From positions 1 through 49,230 of the forward strand of contig JBDRVQ010000010.1 of the NCBI GenBank assembly GCA_039801905.1: 49,230 nucleotides of DNA, read 5' to 3'. Source of the stretch: a candidate division WOR-3 bacterium (GTDB taxonomy: Bacteria > Hydrothermota > Tepidihabitantia > Tepidihabitantales > JBDRVQ01). Within the stretch, counting starts at the first letter, position 1. Each line of letters starts with the position of its first letter. The notes below the pieces were generated by a model. The model was not told where the DNA came from, did not search any database, and saw nothing but the letters and a program-made list of their open reading frames with translations. The translations under genes were made by a program, and so were the position numbers. Positions 911-25,000 of the stretch are shown piece after piece.

Positions 911-928
911 TTGGCACAGACTTTGCTT
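911..928 (+). promoter_or_regulatory. Sigma-54 (-24/-12) promoter
   Basis: The sequence TTGGCACAGACTTTGCTT has the GG and GC elements 12 bp apart and matches the YTGGCACR-N4-TTGCW consensus for RpoN promoters almost perfectly. Transcription would start near 938, giving a leader of about 140 nt that includes the pseudoknot at 1009-1065. It is the only well-spaced RpoN site I found in the intergenic regions, and a sigma-54 activator gene lies 5 kb downstream. Confidence 0.7.
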
Positions 929-1008
929 ATTAACCTATGTATGAGAATATTAAAAGCAAAATCGGTTAAAAGAGGAAATGGGAAACTTTCTCTCTCCTAT
1001 AAATTACT

Positions 1009-1067
1009 GGCGGCACCGAGCCAAGGACGAGAAAAAAATACCCCTCTGGTGCCCAAGGGTTATTTTT
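1009..1067 (+). ncRNA. Pseudoknot leader, copy 1 (candidate cis-regulatory RNA)
   Basis: Stem 1 pairs GGCACC (1012-1017) with GGTGCC (1048-1053). Stem 2 pairs ATACCC (1038-1043) with GGGTTAT (1057-1063), with one bulged base. The strands interleave, so this is an H-type pseudoknot. The loop between the two 5' strands starts with GAGCCAAGGACGAGAA, identical to copy 2 at 1594-1650. The second strand of stem 2 ends only about 8 nt before the GGAGGTGA ribosome-binding site (1071-1078) of the next gene, so folding could control access to it. I do not recognise it as a known riboswitch class. Confidence 0.6.
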
Positions 1068-1081
1068 AGCGGAGGTGAAAG

Positions 1082-1561
1082 ATGTTTAAGAAATTATTAG
1101 CAGTAGCATTAATTACAAGTTGTATGTTTGCACAAGGGGTAGAGAAGAAAGATGACACCCGAAATTCGGCGAACCCGAAAACCGAAGAAGAAACCTCTAT
1201 GGGTTTTAAAGCCGGTATAGGAAATGGATTTTGTAATGTAGGGGTTAGTTATAATGACAAAGGGGAGATTTCTGTCTCAGGTGGTTGTGGGGGTATCCAA
1301 GGAACTGTCTACGGAAACCATAATAACGGCAACGTTGGGGGATGTATAGGCGTAGGAGCCGAGATTAGAACTGTTACTGGTGGGGTTGGTGGTTCAGTAT
1401 CAGTTTGTGTAGATAAGGAAGAAGGACTGACTCGGAGAATTACAACAAGTGTTGGGCCTATTGAGTTTACTAATACTCTTCCAGTAAAGATTGAAAATGT
1501 TCAATATAAACCACCGACTAAAGAAACCAAGAGCGATTGGGATTATACAATAAAGAAATAA
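1082..1561 (+). CDS. Exported glycine-rich protein of unknown function
   Basis: The 159-aa product starts with a signal peptide (MFKKLLAVALITSCMFAQG), with cleavage probably near residue 19. A polar Lys/Glu/Asn-rich segment follows. Residues 40-110 are rich in Gly and Val with several Cys (for example GGCGGIQGTVYGNH), consistent with a small beta-rich secreted or outer-surface domain. I do not recognise a family. A strong ribosome-binding site (GGAGGTGA) lies 4 nt before the ATG and is immediately preceded by the pseudoknot leader. It is followed by a second exported-protein gene with the same leader, so the two are probably one sigma-54-dependent operon. Confidence 0.8.
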   Translation: MFKKLLAVALITSCMFAQGVEKKDDTRNSANPKTEEETSMGFKAGIGNGFCNVGVSYNDKGEISVSGGCGGIQGTVYGNHNNGNVGGCIGVGAEIRTVTGGVGGSVSVCVDKEEGLTRRITTSVGPIEFTNTLPVKIENVQYKPPTKETKSDWDYTIKK

Positions 1562-1593
1562 AAATGAGTAAGAAAATACGGAAGGATACAAAA

Positions 1594-1650
1594 TGGCGGC
1601 ACCGAGCCAAGGACGAGAAGAGATACCCTTTTGGTGCGCAGGGTATCAAG
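1594..1650 (+). ncRNA. Pseudoknot leader, copy 2 (candidate cis-regulatory RNA)
   Basis: The first 25 nt are identical to copy 1. Stem 1 is GCACC (1599-1603) with GGTGC (1633-1637). Stem 2 is GATACCC (1622-1628) with GGGTATC (1641-1647), a perfect 7-bp helix. The loop GAGCCAAGGACGAGAA is unchanged from copy 1, while the short joining loops differ (TTTT and CA here, CTCT and CAA in copy 1). It lies in the 100-nt gap between two genes, directly before the AGGAGGG ribosome-binding site at 1652-1658. Conservation of the loop together with drift of the linkers argues for a selected RNA structure. Confidence 0.6.
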
Positions 1651-1663
1651 CAGGAGGGATAAA

Positions 1664-3166
1664 ATGCGTAGATCAATTATAATTACAGCGATACTTTGCC
1701 TTTCAACAGTAGCGTGGGCACAAATTGTATGGGAAGATGGATTCGAATCTTACCCCGTCGGTCAATTTCCAAACCCACCTTGGATACCAAGTGGAAACGG
1801 CAACTCATCCGATTGTTATGTAGACAGTACCGTCAGATATGCTGGTGTTAAGTCCCTGAAACTTTATGGAGTTGTGGGTGCATTTTGGGGTGCGCTTGCT
1901 CATCGCCCATTACAAACATCGGCTCCTTATTTAATTGAATTTATGGTCAGAAATGGTTCGGAGCAAATTCCTCCGCAAGGACACCAAGGCCGTGGAGGTT
2001 TGTCTGTGCGTACCGGACCGGATTGGACATACCCCGGTAGAGATTTTCTTAGTTTTCATAAAAACGACACCATATATGGAATGAGAGGACCTCTCCAAAC
2101 CTATTCCACTTTGACATGGTATAGAGTAAGAGTCAGATATGAAAGACCTAATCCTAACTCTGTCCGCGTAACTTATTGGATAAATGACGCAATGTATGGA
2201 CCATTTGATGACACAGCGTTTTCCTACGAAAATGACCTTAACTATGTCGACCTTACCGTAGGTGCTGGAACTGCTTGGTTTGACGAGGTTAAAATTTTTG
2301 GAGAATCAGTCCAAAGGCAGGATATAGAAGCTTGCTTTACTCAGCAATGGGGAAGTAACTTTGCTCCAATCAATATCTTCGGAAAACCAGTTAATCAGGG
2401 GCAGAGTGTTCAAGCCAGACTTTGGCCAATTGACCCATCAGGGAATCCAGGCTATTTCAGGTATTTTAGAGATTTCTTTCCGGATTCAACCGACTTCTCA
2501 TGGCGCACCCATCCAACTGGTAATCGCTGGGAACTGAACAAGAGTTTCATCTCAAGGATGTATAAAGGAGGATTGGCCGGATGGTGGGCACGGGACACGA
2601 TTTGGGTTTTCGTCCAATTCGCGGGCGCGGAAGGATATCATCCAGGTTGTGCGGGATATGTTAGAGTCCGAGGGGATAGCTGGAGAATTTCGTCAGTGAT
2701 TAGAGCTTGTATAGTAACACGAGGAGGAGGGTTCGGTTGGAGAGTAATTGGTGACACGCTCTTCGAATGGGAAGGTAGAGACGATGTCCCAGCAGCTGCC
2801 TGTCGTGAGGCAAATTGGCGGTTTTTAGTGGAGTTGGTAAGGCGGGAAGAAATGGGAATCAAAGCACCCAGTGAGAGAAGGAGAACGGAAGAAAAGGGTT
2901 CTCTTCACATCAAACCAAATCTTATCAATTCCGATGCGGTTATAGAGTTTACTGTTCCTTATCCTTCTCACATCAACTTGACAATAAGCGATATTTCTGG
3001 GAAAGTAGTCAGAAACCTTTCAGCCGGAGAAAAGATACCAGGTAGATACGGGATAAGTTGGGATGGTAAAGATGAAAGGGGCATCAATTTACCAGCCGGG
3101 ACTTACTTTGTTACCTTGACTATCAATGGGACACTTCAAACTAAAAAAGCGGTAGTTATAAAATAA
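1664..3166 (+). CDS. Exported protein with C-terminal FlgD/T9SS-type sorting domain
   Basis: A signal peptide (MRRSIIITAILCLSTVAWA) is followed by a mature region beginning QIVWEDGFESYPVGQFP, a start often seen in secreted lectin-like or carbohydrate-binding beta-sandwich domains. The last 80 residues include LTISDISGKVVRNL, YGISWDGKDERG and LPAGTYFVTL. This is the immunoglobulin-like FlgD/T9SS type A C-terminal domain used for surface sorting in Bacteroidetes-like and related phyla. The middle region (about 220-400) is unrecognised. The start is the ATG at 1664, behind AGGAGGG and followed by the signal peptide; an upstream TTG in frame lies inside the pseudoknot and is unlikely. Length is 501 aa. 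A terminator follows. Confidence 0.85.
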   Translation: MRRSIIITAILCLSTVAWAQIVWEDGFESYPVGQFPNPPWIPSGNGNSSDCYVDSTVRYAGVKSLKLYGVVGAFWGALAHRPLQTSAPYLIEFMVRNGSEQIPPQGHQGRGGLSVRTGPDWTYPGRDFLSFHKNDTIYGMRGPLQTYSTLTWYRVRVRYERPNPNSVRVTYWINDAMYGPFDDTAFSYENDLNYVDLTVGAGTAWFDEVKIFGESVQRQDIEACFTQQWGSNFAPINIFGKPVNQGQSVQARLWPIDPSGNPGYFRYFRDFFPDSTDFSWRTHPTGNRWELNKSFISRMYKGGLAGWWARDTIWVFVQFAGAEGYHPGCAGYVRVRGDSWRISSVIRACIVTRGGGFGWRVIGDTLFEWEGRDDVPAAACREANWRFLVELVRREEMGIKAPSERRRTEEKGSLHIKPNLINSDAVIEFTVPYPSHINLTISDISGKVVRNLSAGEKIPGRYGISWDGKDERGINLPAGTYFVTLTINGTLQTKKAVVIK

Positions 3167-3190
3167 CATACAGAGTTGGATAGAGGGCGA

Positions 3191-3221
3191 AGTTAGGGCG
3201 GGAGTTCTTCCCGCCTTAACT
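3191..3221 (+). terminator. Stem-loop terminator after the secreted-protein operon
   Basis: AGTTAGGGCGGGA (3191-3203) pairs with TCCCGCCTTAACT (3209-3221) around a 5-nt loop, giving a 13-bp stem with one G-U pair. The following run is TATTCTTAAG, so the U tract is weak. It separates the exported-protein genes from the kinase gene, which has its own promoter. Confidence 0.7.
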
Positions 3222-3269: not shown

Positions 3270-5669
3270 ATGAGGGAAATTGGTCTTCCGTTAATTATTA
3301 TTCTAATTCCTTTTACATTCGCCTATCCAAAAGATCTACCTTTCCAATTGAAAGAAATTTGGAGGGTAAATTATGGATTAAAACCTTATGATATGAACGG
3401 CGACGGTACCGATGAGTTTCTAAACAAGGACGGTCTTCGTATCAGGCTGATGGATAATAAACTCAAAATCATTTGGGATAGAAATTATCCTCCTTCGGGT
3501 TTTGAAAGTTTTTTGACCGGAGATTTCAACAAAGACGGATTTGATGAAATATTCGCTACTATTCGCAAGGAGTCAATTGATTTTATCACCGTCTATGATG
3601 GATCAAATATTCAATTGACGCCACCTTTTTCTACAATTACTAAGGAAGATAAAAAAAGGAACTACTGGTGGTACAGAGGTGCTCGTCCCTGTGGGCTTGT
3701 TGATGCTAATGAAGACGGTTTATTAGATATAATAGTTAATTTGAGTACATATTGGGGAAAGGGTTGGAGAGGTCTAGCAGTTTTTGATTTAAAAACTGGT
3801 AAAAAACTATGGGAGTATTTAGTTGGTCCGATGGTAGGCGAAACATTTGTTGAAGATTTGAATGGTGACGGAAAACCGGAGATCTTTTTTGAAACGTCAG
3901 CCCTCTCTAACGGAGTATATGCCGACAATACTGATGATTTTCATACTTATGTAATTGTTTTAAATAATAGAGGCAAACTTCTATGGCAAAAAGAAATCGG
4001 CGGTTATTTTTCTCGTACCTTTTTGCGAGTTTCGGATTTGGATTTGGATGGGAATAAAGAAATCGTAGTCGCTTTAAGAACTATCCGACAGGTTGAAGAA
4101 AGTGACTCATTAATGATTTTTGACGGCGCTGATGGAAAAGTTAAGAAATCTATAAAAATGGGTAGTTTTATGGGATTGGAATGTGCTGATTTAAATCAAG
4201 ATGGAAAAGATGAGATTGTTGCTGGCAATCGAGATGGTGAATTAAGAGTCTTTGACCAAAACCTTAGTGTAATTTCTTCTTTTCGTAACCCAGGCGGGAT
4301 AGAATTAAAATCGGTCTTTGATACCGACGGCGATGAAAAACCGGAAATTTTTATTGTTACCGCAGATAGAAGGTTAGTAGTATTGAATGGGCGATTGAAA
4401 GAAATTGCTGAAGCAGAAATACCTATTCCTTTGAATTTTGACGATTACAACACTGAGGTAAGAGTGTCACCTGTAAAGGAAGGGATAAAGAGAAGAATCT
4501 TGTTAGGATACCCTAAAGAAGAAATGCCAGAATTAACACTCTTAGAATTGGTTCCAGCCTTCGTTGCACCTATTCCTATAATTCCTACCGTCCTTCTAAT
4601 CATTTTTGGTATTACAATTATAACACTTGCTTATCTTTATGTCAGCAAGATAATCATTCATAAAATCCAATTTCCAACAACTAATTTGTTGGAAAAGGCA
4701 AAAGAGGGATATATCATTCTGAATAAAAAAGGAAAGGTTTTGTTTGCTAATGAGACCGCTGTGAGGATTTTGGAAATTGAGAATTTGGTGGGAGCAAAGT
4801 TAAGAGAAAAATTAATCCCAGAGATAGCGGAAATAATAGAGAAAGATGAGGGACAAATAACCATTAAAAAACCAGAAGGGGAAATAGTTTTGGCTTTCAA
4901 AAGAAGTGAAAGCAAACAAGGATTTCTAATAAGAATTGAAGATATAACCAAAGCGGAATCCTTAAAAAGAATTGAAGGTTGGGCGCCAGTAGCACAAAAA
5001 TTAGCACACGGTATTAAGAATCCACTCTCAACTATTTTAGGAGCGGTTGAACAGATTGAAATTAAATGCGAAGACGAAAAGATTAAGAAATACCTCGGCT
5101 ATATTAAAGATGAAGTTACAAACTTAAAGAAAATGGCTGATGCCTTTATGCGCTTTACGAAAATAGTACCACCAGTTTTAGTACCCAAAAGTATCAACGA
5201 GGTCATTAAAAAGGTAATAGGAAAATACGAGACAGGACTTGCGGAAAATATTACAATAAAATGCGAACTGGATGGAAAATTACCCCTCATTAATTTTGAC
5301 GAGGAGGGAATCTCTAATGCCCTGAATATAATAATTGAAAATGGAATTGAGGCAGTGATAGCAAAGGGAAAAGTAAATAGAGAGGAAGGAGTTGGTATAT
5401 TGAAGATAAGAACCTTACCAATTGAGAAATTAGAAAAAGGTATTATAAAAGAATATGTGAGGATAGAAATATCAGATACCGGCACCGGAATTCCGGAGCG
5501 ATATTTGGAAAAGGTCTGTGAACCTTATTTCACCTATAACAAACCCTTAGGAACGGGTCTTGGTTTAACCTTGGCAAAAAAGATTATAGAAGACCATAAG
5601 GGTTATATTGAAATTCATAGCAAGGAAGGGGTCGGGACTGAAGTTAATGTCTACTTGCCTCTCGGCTAA
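3270..5669 (+). CDS. Sensor histidine kinase with exported FG-GAP/VCBS-like repeat region
   Basis: This is the input protein of a two-component system. A signal sequence or N-terminal membrane segment is followed by about 400 residues with repeated calcium-loop-like motifs (MNGDGTDEF, FNKDGFDEI, LNGDGKPEI, LNQDGKDEI). These are typical of FG-GAP/VCBS beta-propeller blades, so the sensor region is likely extracytoplasmic. A transmembrane helix lies near residues 430-462. A PAS domain (about 473-563) follows, then the H box (LAHGIKNPLSTILG, His580), the N box (IIIENGIEA) and the G boxes (DTGTGIP, GTGLGL). The cytoplasmic core resembles NtrB/AtoS kinases. It is 5 nt upstream of the NtrC-type regulator and clearly its partner. 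The signal sensed is unknown; a surface ligand is plausible. Confidence 0.9.
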   Translation: MREIGLPLIIILIPFTFAYPKDLPFQLKEIWRVNYGLKPYDMNGDGTDEFLNKDGLRIRLMDNKLKIIWDRNYPPSGFESFLTGDFNKDGFDEIFATIRKESIDFITVYDGSNIQLTPPFSTITKEDKKRNYWWYRGARPCGLVDANEDGLLDIIVNLSTYWGKGWRGLAVFDLKTGKKLWEYLVGPMVGETFVEDLNGDGKPEIFFETSALSNGVYADNTDDFHTYVIVLNNRGKLLWQKEIGGYFSRTFLRVSDLDLDGNKEIVVALRTIRQVEESDSLMIFDGADGKVKKSIKMGSFMGLECADLNQDGKDEIVAGNRDGELRVFDQNLSVISSFRNPGGIELKSVFDTDGDEKPEIFIVTADRRLVVLNGRLKEIAEAEIPIPLNFDDYNTEVRVSPVKEGIKRRILLGYPKEEMPELTLLELVPAFVAPIPIIPTVLLIIFGITIITLAYLYVSKIIIHKIQFPTTNLLEKAKEGYIILNKKGKVLFANETAVRILEIENLVGAKLREKLIPEIAEIIEKDEGQITIKKPEGEIVLAFKRSESKQGFLIRIEDITKAESLKRIEGWAPVAQKLAHGIKNPLSTILGAVEQIEIKCEDEKIKKYLGYIKDEVTNLKKMADAFMRFTKIVPPVLVPKSINEVIKKVIGKYETGLAENITIKCELDGKLPLINFDEEGISNALNIIIENGIEAVIAKGKVNREEGVGILKIRTLPIEKLEKGIIKEYVRIEISDTGTGIPERYLEKVCEPYFTYNKPLGTGLGLTLAKKIIEDHKGYIEIHSKEGVGTEVNVYLPLG

Positions 5670-5674
5670 ATAGA

Positions 5675-7045
5675 ATGAAAGGAAAAATTCTTATTATTGA
5701 TGATAACGAAAGATGGCGAGAGGTACTGGCTGATATTCTTTCCTCGGAAAATTATGAAGTTTTAGAAGCCGGAGAAGGAGAAGAAGGGATAAAAATGGCA
5801 AAAGAGAATGAGATAAATCTTATTCTCCTTGACCTCCGTCTTCCTGACATACCGGAAAACGACGAATTTAAGGTCTTGAAGGAAATAGTAGGGATAAAGC
5901 CTTCTCTTCCGATTGTAATGATTTCCGAATTTGGAACGATTGAAAAGGCAGTTCTTGCTACAAAACTCGGTGCCTACGATTTTATTGAAAAGCCCCCGAA
6001 CCGAGAAAAGATCTTATTGACAGTGAGAAATGCCTTGGAAAAAGAGAAGATGGAGCGGGAGATTACTCTGCTGAAAGAAGAGGTTTTTAAGAGATATCGG
6101 ATGATTGGGGTATCAAAGGAGATGATGAATATTTTTACCCTCATTGAAGATGTGGCTCCAAGGAAGGTAAGTGTGCTCATTACTGGGGAGAGTGGTGTGG
6201 GTAAGGAATTGGTTGCCCGGGCGATTCATAACCGGAGTGAGCGAAAGGATAAGCCATTTGTCAAGATAAACTGTGCGGCAATCCCTGAAGGGTTAATTGA
6301 GAGTGAATTGTTTGGCTATGAGAAGGGGGCTTTTACTGATGCCAAGATGCAAAAGAAAGGGAAATTGGAGTTAGCAGATGGCGGAACCTTATTCTTAGAC
6401 GAAATCGGGGATATGAGTCTATCCACCCAGGCAAAGTTATTAAGGGTCTTAGAAGAGGGAGAATTTGAGAGGCTCGGTTCAATTGACATCTTAAAGGTGG
6501 ATGTGCGGGTGATTGCCGCTACCAATAAAAATTTGGAAAAGGAGATGGCGGGTGGGAAATTTCGGGAGGACCTATTTTATCGGCTGAATGTGATAAGTAT
6601 CTATATCCCACCTTTAAGAGAGAGAAAGGAGGATATTCCCGTGTTAGCGGATTATTTCCTTAGTGTCGCCTGCGAAGAAAACGGTATCCCAAAGAAAACT
6701 CTCACTTCGGATGCGATTGAGTTCTTGAAGAGTCAAACTTGGAAAGGGAACTGTCGGGAGTTGAAAAACTTAATTGAGAGGGCGGCGATTCTTATTCGGA
6801 CGAGTGAAATAAGTTTTAAGGATTTGATAAAGGTTATGGAAACAGGTTATGGACCAAAGGCTTCGGATGTTGAGAAGTCTTTGAGAGAGGCACGGGATGA
6901 ATTTGAAAGAAGATATATCTTAGAATTACTCTCTAAGTATAATGGAAATTTGACCAAAACCGCAGAGGTATTAAAGATTCATCGGGCACATCTTTTCCGG
7001 CTGATGAAGCGATTGGGTATTAACCACACGTCCAATCAGGATTAA
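5675..7045 (+). CDS. Sigma-54-dependent response regulator, NtrC family
   Basis: Domains in order are a receiver domain with acidic pair D9-D10, phosphoacceptor D53 (LILLDLRLP) and the conserved Lys in FIEKP; an AAA+ domain with Walker A GESGVGKE and Walker B GGTLFLDEIGD; and a Fis-type helix-turn-helix at the C-terminus (NLTKTAEVLKIHRAHLFRLM). It should activate RpoN promoters after phosphorylation by the adjacent kinase. The sigma-54 contact loop reads GAFTDA instead of the usual GAFTGA; variants at this position occur in some activators. The most likely target in this window is the RpoN promoter at 911-928. Length of 456 aa is normal. Confidence 0.95.
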   Translation: MKGKILIIDDNERWREVLADILSSENYEVLEAGEGEEGIKMAKENEINLILLDLRLPDIPENDEFKVLKEIVGIKPSLPIVMISEFGTIEKAVLATKLGAYDFIEKPPNREKILLTVRNALEKEKMEREITLLKEEVFKRYRMIGVSKEMMNIFTLIEDVAPRKVSVLITGESGVGKELVARAIHNRSERKDKPFVKINCAAIPEGLIESELFGYEKGAFTDAKMQKKGKLELADGGTLFLDEIGDMSLSTQAKLLRVLEEGEFERLGSIDILKVDVRVIAATNKNLEKEMAGGKFREDLFYRLNVISIYIPPLRERKEDIPVLADYFLSVACEENGIPKKTLTSDAIEFLKSQTWKGNCRELKNLIERAAILIRTSEISFKDLIKVMETGYGPKASDVEKSLREARDEFERRYILELLSKYNGNLTKTAEVLKIHRAHLFRLMKRLGINHTSNQD

Positions 7046-18319: not shown

Positions 18320-19855
<1,536 letters not shown>

Positions 19856-21763: not shown

Positions 21764-24781
<3,018 letters not shown>

Positions 24782-24803
24782 TATCCGCCTTTCCAGTAAG
24801 TTT

Positions 24804-24919
24804 GCCGGTGGCGATACCGGAGGGGAAACACCTCTTCCCATTCCGAATAGAGAAGTTAAGCCCTCCAGGGCCAATGGTACTATGCTGGTAACGGCATGGG
24901 AGAGTAGGTCGTCACCGGC
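24804..24919 (+). rRNA. rrf: 5S ribosomal RNA
   Basis: GCCGGTG at the 5' end pairs with CACCGGC at the 3' end. CCCATTCCGAAT, GAAGTTAAGC and GGGAGAGTAGG are the standard internal segments. It begins 22 nt after 23S and is about 116 nt long. A weak TTCTATT/AATAGAA hairpin follows. Confidence 0.96.
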
Positions 24920-25000
24920 TTGTAATAATTTCTATTAAAAAATAGAATAAGTGTTTTATATTCAAAATCTTATTTTTAATTTAGTTTTTGTTATTTTTTA

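Follow-up and report, generated by a model that had tools for sequence, protein, structure and literature searches.

The window analysed here, a stretch of 49,230 nt, is contig C10 of a 1.7-Mb genome from a candidate division WOR-3 bacterium. Two genes for secreted proteins stand in tandem on its forward strand, each behind a leader of its own, and are followed by genes for a sensor histidine kinase and an NtrC-type response regulator (Table 1). The two leaders share a 26-nt block (TGGCGGCACCGAGCCAAGGACGAGAA) that is identical at 1008–1033 and 1594–1619. The product of gene 1 has no Pfam family above the cut-off; by eye, it resembles near its C-terminus the product of a motif-led gene from another genome (G117, locus L247).

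Table 1. Features of the leader locus in the window.
Feature	Position	Strand	Details and basis
Sigma-54 promoter TTGGCACAGACTTTGCT of the copy 1 transcript	911–927	+	Predicted; match to YTGGCACN5TTGCW
Copy 1, whole leader	1008–1067	+	
Copy 1, hairpin H1	1008–1023	+	TGGC 1008–1011 / GCCA 1020–1023; loop GGCACCGA 1012–1019
Copy 1, kissing helix	1013–1052	+	GCACC 1013–1017 x GGTGC 1048–1052; G1012-C1053 as a possible sixth pair
Copy 1, linker AGGACGAG	1024–1031	+	Family consensus GACGARAR; conserved in the family alignment
Copy 1, hairpin H2	1034–1067	+	Surrounds the GGTGC loop; double-sided changes in the family; folding prediction
Copy 1, ribosome-binding site (gene 1)	1071–1075	+	GGAGG, read from sequence; ATG 1082
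Gene 1, secreted glycine-rich protein, 159 aa	1082–1561	+	
Copy 2, whole leader	1594–1647	+	
Copy 2, hairpin H1	1594–1609	+	TGGC 1594–1597 / GCCA 1606–1609; basis as copy 1
Copy 2, kissing helix	1599–1637	+	GCACC 1599–1603 x GGTGC 1633–1637
Copy 2, hairpin H2	1622–1647	+	GATACCC 1622–1628 / GGGTATC 1641–1647; sequence, folding, covariation
Copy 2, ribosome-binding site (gene 2)	1653–1659	+	AGGAGGG, read from sequence; ATG 1664
Gene 2, secreted protein, 500 aa, FlgD_Ig/Por-type C-terminal domain	1664–3166	+	Pfam FlgD_ig 7.4e-12
Sensor histidine kinase with FG-GAP repeats (linked regulator)	3270–5669	+	Pfam
Sigma-54-dependent response regulator, NtrC type (linked regulator)	5675–7045	+	Pfam Sigma54_activat 8.3e-74

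A preliminary description of this DNA had reported the two leaders with their identical blocks, two helices in each and a strong ribosome-binding site shortly downstream, all of which the window sequence bears out: in copy 1, stem 1 pairs GGCACC 1012–1017 with GGTGCC 1048–1053 and stem 2 pairs 1038–1043 with 1057–1063, and the corresponding stems of copy 2 are the kissing helix and H2 arms of Table 1. The 16-nt element that it had singled out has no further site in the genome at fewer than two mismatches. Three further copies of the motif are present in the same genome, a single one on contig C12 and a pair on C24. These (L242 5556, L242 8654 and L243 5122) are without the ACGR linker and carry ATGGGAAG or ATGGTAAG instead, possibly forming a subtype; the gene behind L242:8654 is truncated after 39 codons.

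Fold and covariation of the leader family

The description as a pseudoknot captured the interleaving of the two helices but missed a third, H1, so that the topology is not of the plain H-type; it is a kissing complex of two hairpins. H1 (YGGY/RCCR) closes a loop of 7–8 nt, GGCACCG(A), which contains GCACC. The 5' strand of stem 1 lies in this loop, which makes stem 1 a kissing helix formed by the loops of H1 and H2, and the whole fold consists of two hairpins joined by the kissing-loop helix GCACC x GGUGC, spanning ~55 nt. What had been called an invariant 16-nt loop is identical in the two leaders of the window, yet it is not a single loop: its first five bases are the loop end and 3' arm of H1, and its single-stranded part is the linker only, whose consensus GACGARAR is conserved in the family. 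Among relatives of the same order, the first conserved block varies solely as TGGC...GCCA or CGGC...GCCG, that is, as the 4-bp H1; across relatives the outer H1 pair covaries, appearing as UA, CG, AU and GC.

To delineate the family, a first covariance model (R1, comprising H1 and H2) was built from a seed whose loops, linkers and one stem bulge had been hand-trimmed to equal length, serving as a search seed only, and a second (R2) was built from 36 real matches. Both were run over 147 WOR-3 genomes, mostly draft assemblies. R2 returned 42 confident copies (E no worse than 2e-5, set off from the remainder by a clear gap in score), distributed over 26 of the 147 genomes and 12 families, with up to five copies per genome. 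Rather than the mere pair first envisaged, the leaders thus belong to a family that extends across at least 12 WOR-3 families. By the same covariance search, none of the 47 genomes of a first control phylum had a match, and the only match among 297 genomes of a second was a false positive in a CRISPR array. Outside WOR-3, the matches listed include one copy in Patescibacteria (1 of 240 genomes), where the full motif and a Shine-Dalgarno (SD) sequence precede a receiver-domain gene at the start of a contig, and one on a 29-kb phage contig (L264) with RecT-like and ParB-like genes, where a perfect leader copy at 3160–3212 (−) stands before a small ORF. The phage contig had no relative in the phage collection.

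Several matches were set aside. The Bacteroidota match (L277) is a CRISPR spacer beside a repeat that by chance contains GGTGC; this spacer, at about 1500–1540, is similar to the motif in its 5' half (GGCGGCACCGGCCGAAGACGAGA), a likeness that is probably due to chance or possibly reflects an anti-phage spacer. In the Planctomycetota and Clostridia matches (L270, L271) H2 is broken or barely formed. Weak matches such as L088, L089, L091, L092, L095, L097, L098, L100–L102 and L104–L107 resemble coding sequence, being without a GGTGC hairpin or having no ribosome-binding site behind them, and exact 16-mer matches in viral contigs are chance occurrences in coding DNA only.

The two hairpins are supported by extensive covariation. 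H2 shows double-sided changes in all 7 modelled pairs, and over the 42 distinct aligned rows 94.4% of paired cells are complementary, against 76.9 ± 1.0 in shuffles, with 130 cells changed on both sides against 44.5 ± 6.7. The covariation score is 0.483 compared with 0.148 ± 0.014 in shuffles, and it collapses when the partners are slid by one column. Since the alignment had been built around H1 and H2, the arms were also swapped between copies as a further control: H1 is fully paired in 95% of copies but in 22% after swapping, and an H2 of 6 bp or more forms in 92.5% with its own arms but in 23% with the 3' arms of other copies. These matches were selected by a covariance model that itself rewards H1 and H2 pairs; the five relatives that were found first, through a sequence pattern only, form H2 without exception. 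The kissing helix behaves differently from stem 2. Of its cells 99% are paired, and it is nearly invariant: a double change from G-C to A-U (L079), a pair of G-U cells and two cells that disrupt the helix are all the changes there are. With so little variation, the evidence for the kissing pairing is chiefly its invariance, helped by a few compatible changes. The earlier view that the rest of the leader diverges while keeping its helices therefore holds for stem 2, which varies fully and covaries, but not for stem 1. Free energies of the leaders are not unusually low on folding. The leader has a covarying secondary structure across diverged sequences, as is characteristic of cis-regulatory structured RNA.

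Placement, downstream genes and the sigma-54 setting

The 3' end of the model, which is that of H2, usually lies 12–27 nt upstream of the start codon, with a median near 18, while a few copies are 68–93 nt from the chosen start. This fixed place is kept upstream of several unrelated coding genes, a second hallmark of cis-regulatory structured RNA. Some copies sit inside strings of genes: copy 2 of the window begins 33 nt after the stop of gene 1, the intergenic stretch showing no promoter-like site on the forward strand, and L244:7747 and L248:11605 follow the preceding ORF by 26 and 19 nt. Such positions leave little room for a promoter and point to a role at the RNA level, cistron by cistron. 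At the leader, neither sigma-70 promoters nor terminators were found above chance; the 5' arm of H2 paired with the SD no more strongly than shuffled arms did, and none of the alternative folds that would mask the ribosome-binding site stood out.

Most leaders precede genes for exported proteins. Under a simple rule based on hydrophobicity, 26 of 31 downstream ORFs of at least 100 aa open with a signal-peptide-like segment, whereas among background genes the count is 15 of 72 (Fisher p = 2e-9). Several motif-led proteins end in FlgD_ig or Por secretion-tail domains. The association with secreted-protein genes seen in the window is accordingly general but not exclusive, the exceptions being a restriction-modification operon, a peptide with an ABC exporter, the phage gene, the response-regulator receiver and small proteins without known function. 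In the first of these (L248, G035:C10, 6182–12464), two kissing leaders stand ahead of an operon encoding an MjaI-type restriction endonuclease, a DNA methylase, an AAA ATPase and a McrBC component; L083, a third copy, stands before a protein that shares a C-terminal ARKFRRED with this case. In five loci (L251 3170–5071, L253, L252, L127 and L135) the leader is followed by a conserved ORF of 42–44 aa ending AQVGKSGCRGRPE(T/I) and then by an ABC transporter, which from the sequences looks like an exported-peptide cassette. At L251-type loci conserved DNA extends beyond the ORF stop, with a possible CGGGC/GCCCG hairpin.

Many of the leaders are also linked to sigma-54. The predicted promoter ahead of copy 1 is the sole match to its consensus in the window at up to one mismatch (0.25 expected), and such sites precede 10 of the 42 motif copies, compared with 0.4% of random 200-nt stretches. 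In genus g13 (L247, L245, L249) the site lies constantly at −81/−82 from the motif; the leader of this genus carries, in addition, a 5' domain, GATGATGCAC...GTGCTTCATC, which surrounds a GACTC/GAGTC hairpin and begins about at the expected sigma-54 transcription start. Homologues of the kinase and regulator adjoin motif copies in other genera and families, and a sigma-54 activator gene lies within 6 kb at 12 of 27 loci against 1.08 expected in the bearing genomes, these loci being not all independent, with seven genera contributing. The kinase/regulator pair of the window probably governs its own locus. However, families f22 and f23 are without sigma-54 and yet carry the RNA, hence the RNA does not need the sigma-54 circuit.

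Known RNA classes and competing readings

The covariance search and Rfam comparison suggested in the preliminary description yielded many copies before other genes, clear covariation and no Rfam match. Rfam 15 gave none at the motif, whether for the window at the gathering score, for the motif region up to E 10 or for 12 diverse loci up to E 1, and our literature search found nothing on WOR-3 riboswitches or on a leader of kissing-hairpin architecture. The surmise of an undescribed system has therefore stood: the family is new by Rfam and the searchable literature, belonging to a kind already known, the cis-regulatory leader, with an architecture of its own.

SAM-II and preQ1 riboswitches are small translational H-type pseudoknots beside the SD, whereas in the WOR-3 leader a third helix, H1, makes a kissing complex, and its conserved bases and genes are others. 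The c-di-GMP-I/II (GEMM) riboswitches control several diverse surface and secreted genes per genome. The WOR-3 leader shares this gene range but differs in structure. GGDEF matches occur in 98 of the 147 genomes, none of them from the window's order, which holds most copies, and CsrA in one (G097, which is motif-less), being absent from every motif-bearing genome. Since the main bearers lack GGDEF and no bearer has CsrA, the leader is neither a c-di-GMP riboswitch nor a CsrA operator; for the window's order the missing synthase refutes the former, unless another synthase exists. The guanidine-II riboswitch (mini-ykkC, RF01068) consists of two short hairpins before the ribosome-binding site. 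It has two ACGR tetraloops, whereas in the 42 distinct aligned copies of the WOR-3 leader the loops are GGCACCG(A) and N-GGUGC-N, 7–13 nt long and joined by a 5-bp kissing helix, ACGR sits in the linker, and the genes behind are not guanidine exporters; like the other two classes, it leaves no Rfam match at the leader. The likeness lies in the general plan, as the guanidine-II hairpins make an intramolecular kissing-loop contact (PMC9300104) and the WOR-3 leader likewise places two short, kissing hairpins before the ribosome-binding site. Orphan riboswitch candidates from comparative genomics are conserved, covarying leaders before many genes with ligand unknown (PMC2864571, PMC8632094, PMC11109978); the WOR-3 leader is by that measure the same kind of finding, but outside the Rfam families and in an uncultured phylum.

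Two other roles in the messenger deserve weight, although we regard either as unlikely. The near-invariant loops and linker, the small size and the proximity to the SD would all fit an operator role, in which a protein that represses or activates translation binds the kissing complex and linker. No protein is linked to all copies, however: besides the lack of CsrA, the kinase/regulator pair is absent at many loci and sigma-54 from two bearing families, and the phage and restriction-operon copies would require an ever-present factor. These last copies would fit a constitutive translation enhancer or mRNA 5' stabiliser that involves no switching and serves strongly expressed exported proteins, as would the mostly surface and secreted genes behind the leader, its closeness to the SD and the failure to find a competing fold. 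Yet a generic stabiliser would need neither the invariant loop pair nor the conserved linker, and the intercistronic copies are not at a 5' end; this reading has the same low standing as the protein operator.

Far less probable are two further explanations. Linkage to sigma-54 promoters and activators might suggest a DNA site for a sigma-54 activator or other DNA-binding protein, not an RNA; this is highly improbable, given that H2 covaries without conserved sequence, that the motif lies downstream of the promoter in fixed orientation to the start codon and that it is present in families without sigma-54. A variant c-di-GMP or cGAMP riboswitch, suggested by the GEMM-like set of several diverse secreted genes per genome, is more improbable still, given that the order with most of the copies has no GGDEF protein and that Rfam gives no match.

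It is very likely that the kissing-hairpin leader is a new RNA element that controls protein synthesis. We consider it fairly probable that it represents, in particular, a new family of cis-regulatory mRNA leaders of ~55 nt that act on translation initiation and are perhaps ligand-gated. In this fold the H1 loop presents GCACC and the H2 loop GGUGC, the two loops kissing while the GACGARAR linker joins the hairpins, and H2 ends at the upstream edge of the site that a 30S ribosome would occupy. From this position at the edge of the 30S site we infer that the fold most likely alters translation initiation, setting the translation of the following gene cistron by cistron. In many WOR-3 genomes it would constitute a second layer of control on transcripts from sigma-54 promoters, adding a post-transcriptional step to the two-component, sigma-54 circuit that serves exported proteins.

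Least certain is that a small, generally available ligand gates the fold. The occurrence of the RNA in sigma-54-less families, in a restriction-modification operon and on a phage contig suggests that the interacting factor is general, such as a metabolite or the ribosome, and the leader's place before phage and restriction genes likewise suggests a general signal or factor; the gene set behind the leaders points to no particular ligand. That the leaders form a new class of riboswitch, with a 5-bp kissing complex at its core, sensing a widely available signal, coupling it to surface-protein export in WOR-3 and adopted by phages and restriction systems too, is a tentative proposal, which we rate as possible though somewhat doubtful. 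The leaders make up an RNA family that is well supported and distinct in architecture, in a phylum without a cultured model, and the 42 distinct aligned copies together with the covariance model are ready for probing. As a side observation on the same window, its 16S rRNA gene (18321–19851, −) and its 23S and 5S genes (21765–24920, +) lie on opposite strands about 1.9 kb apart, in an unlinked divergent arrangement.
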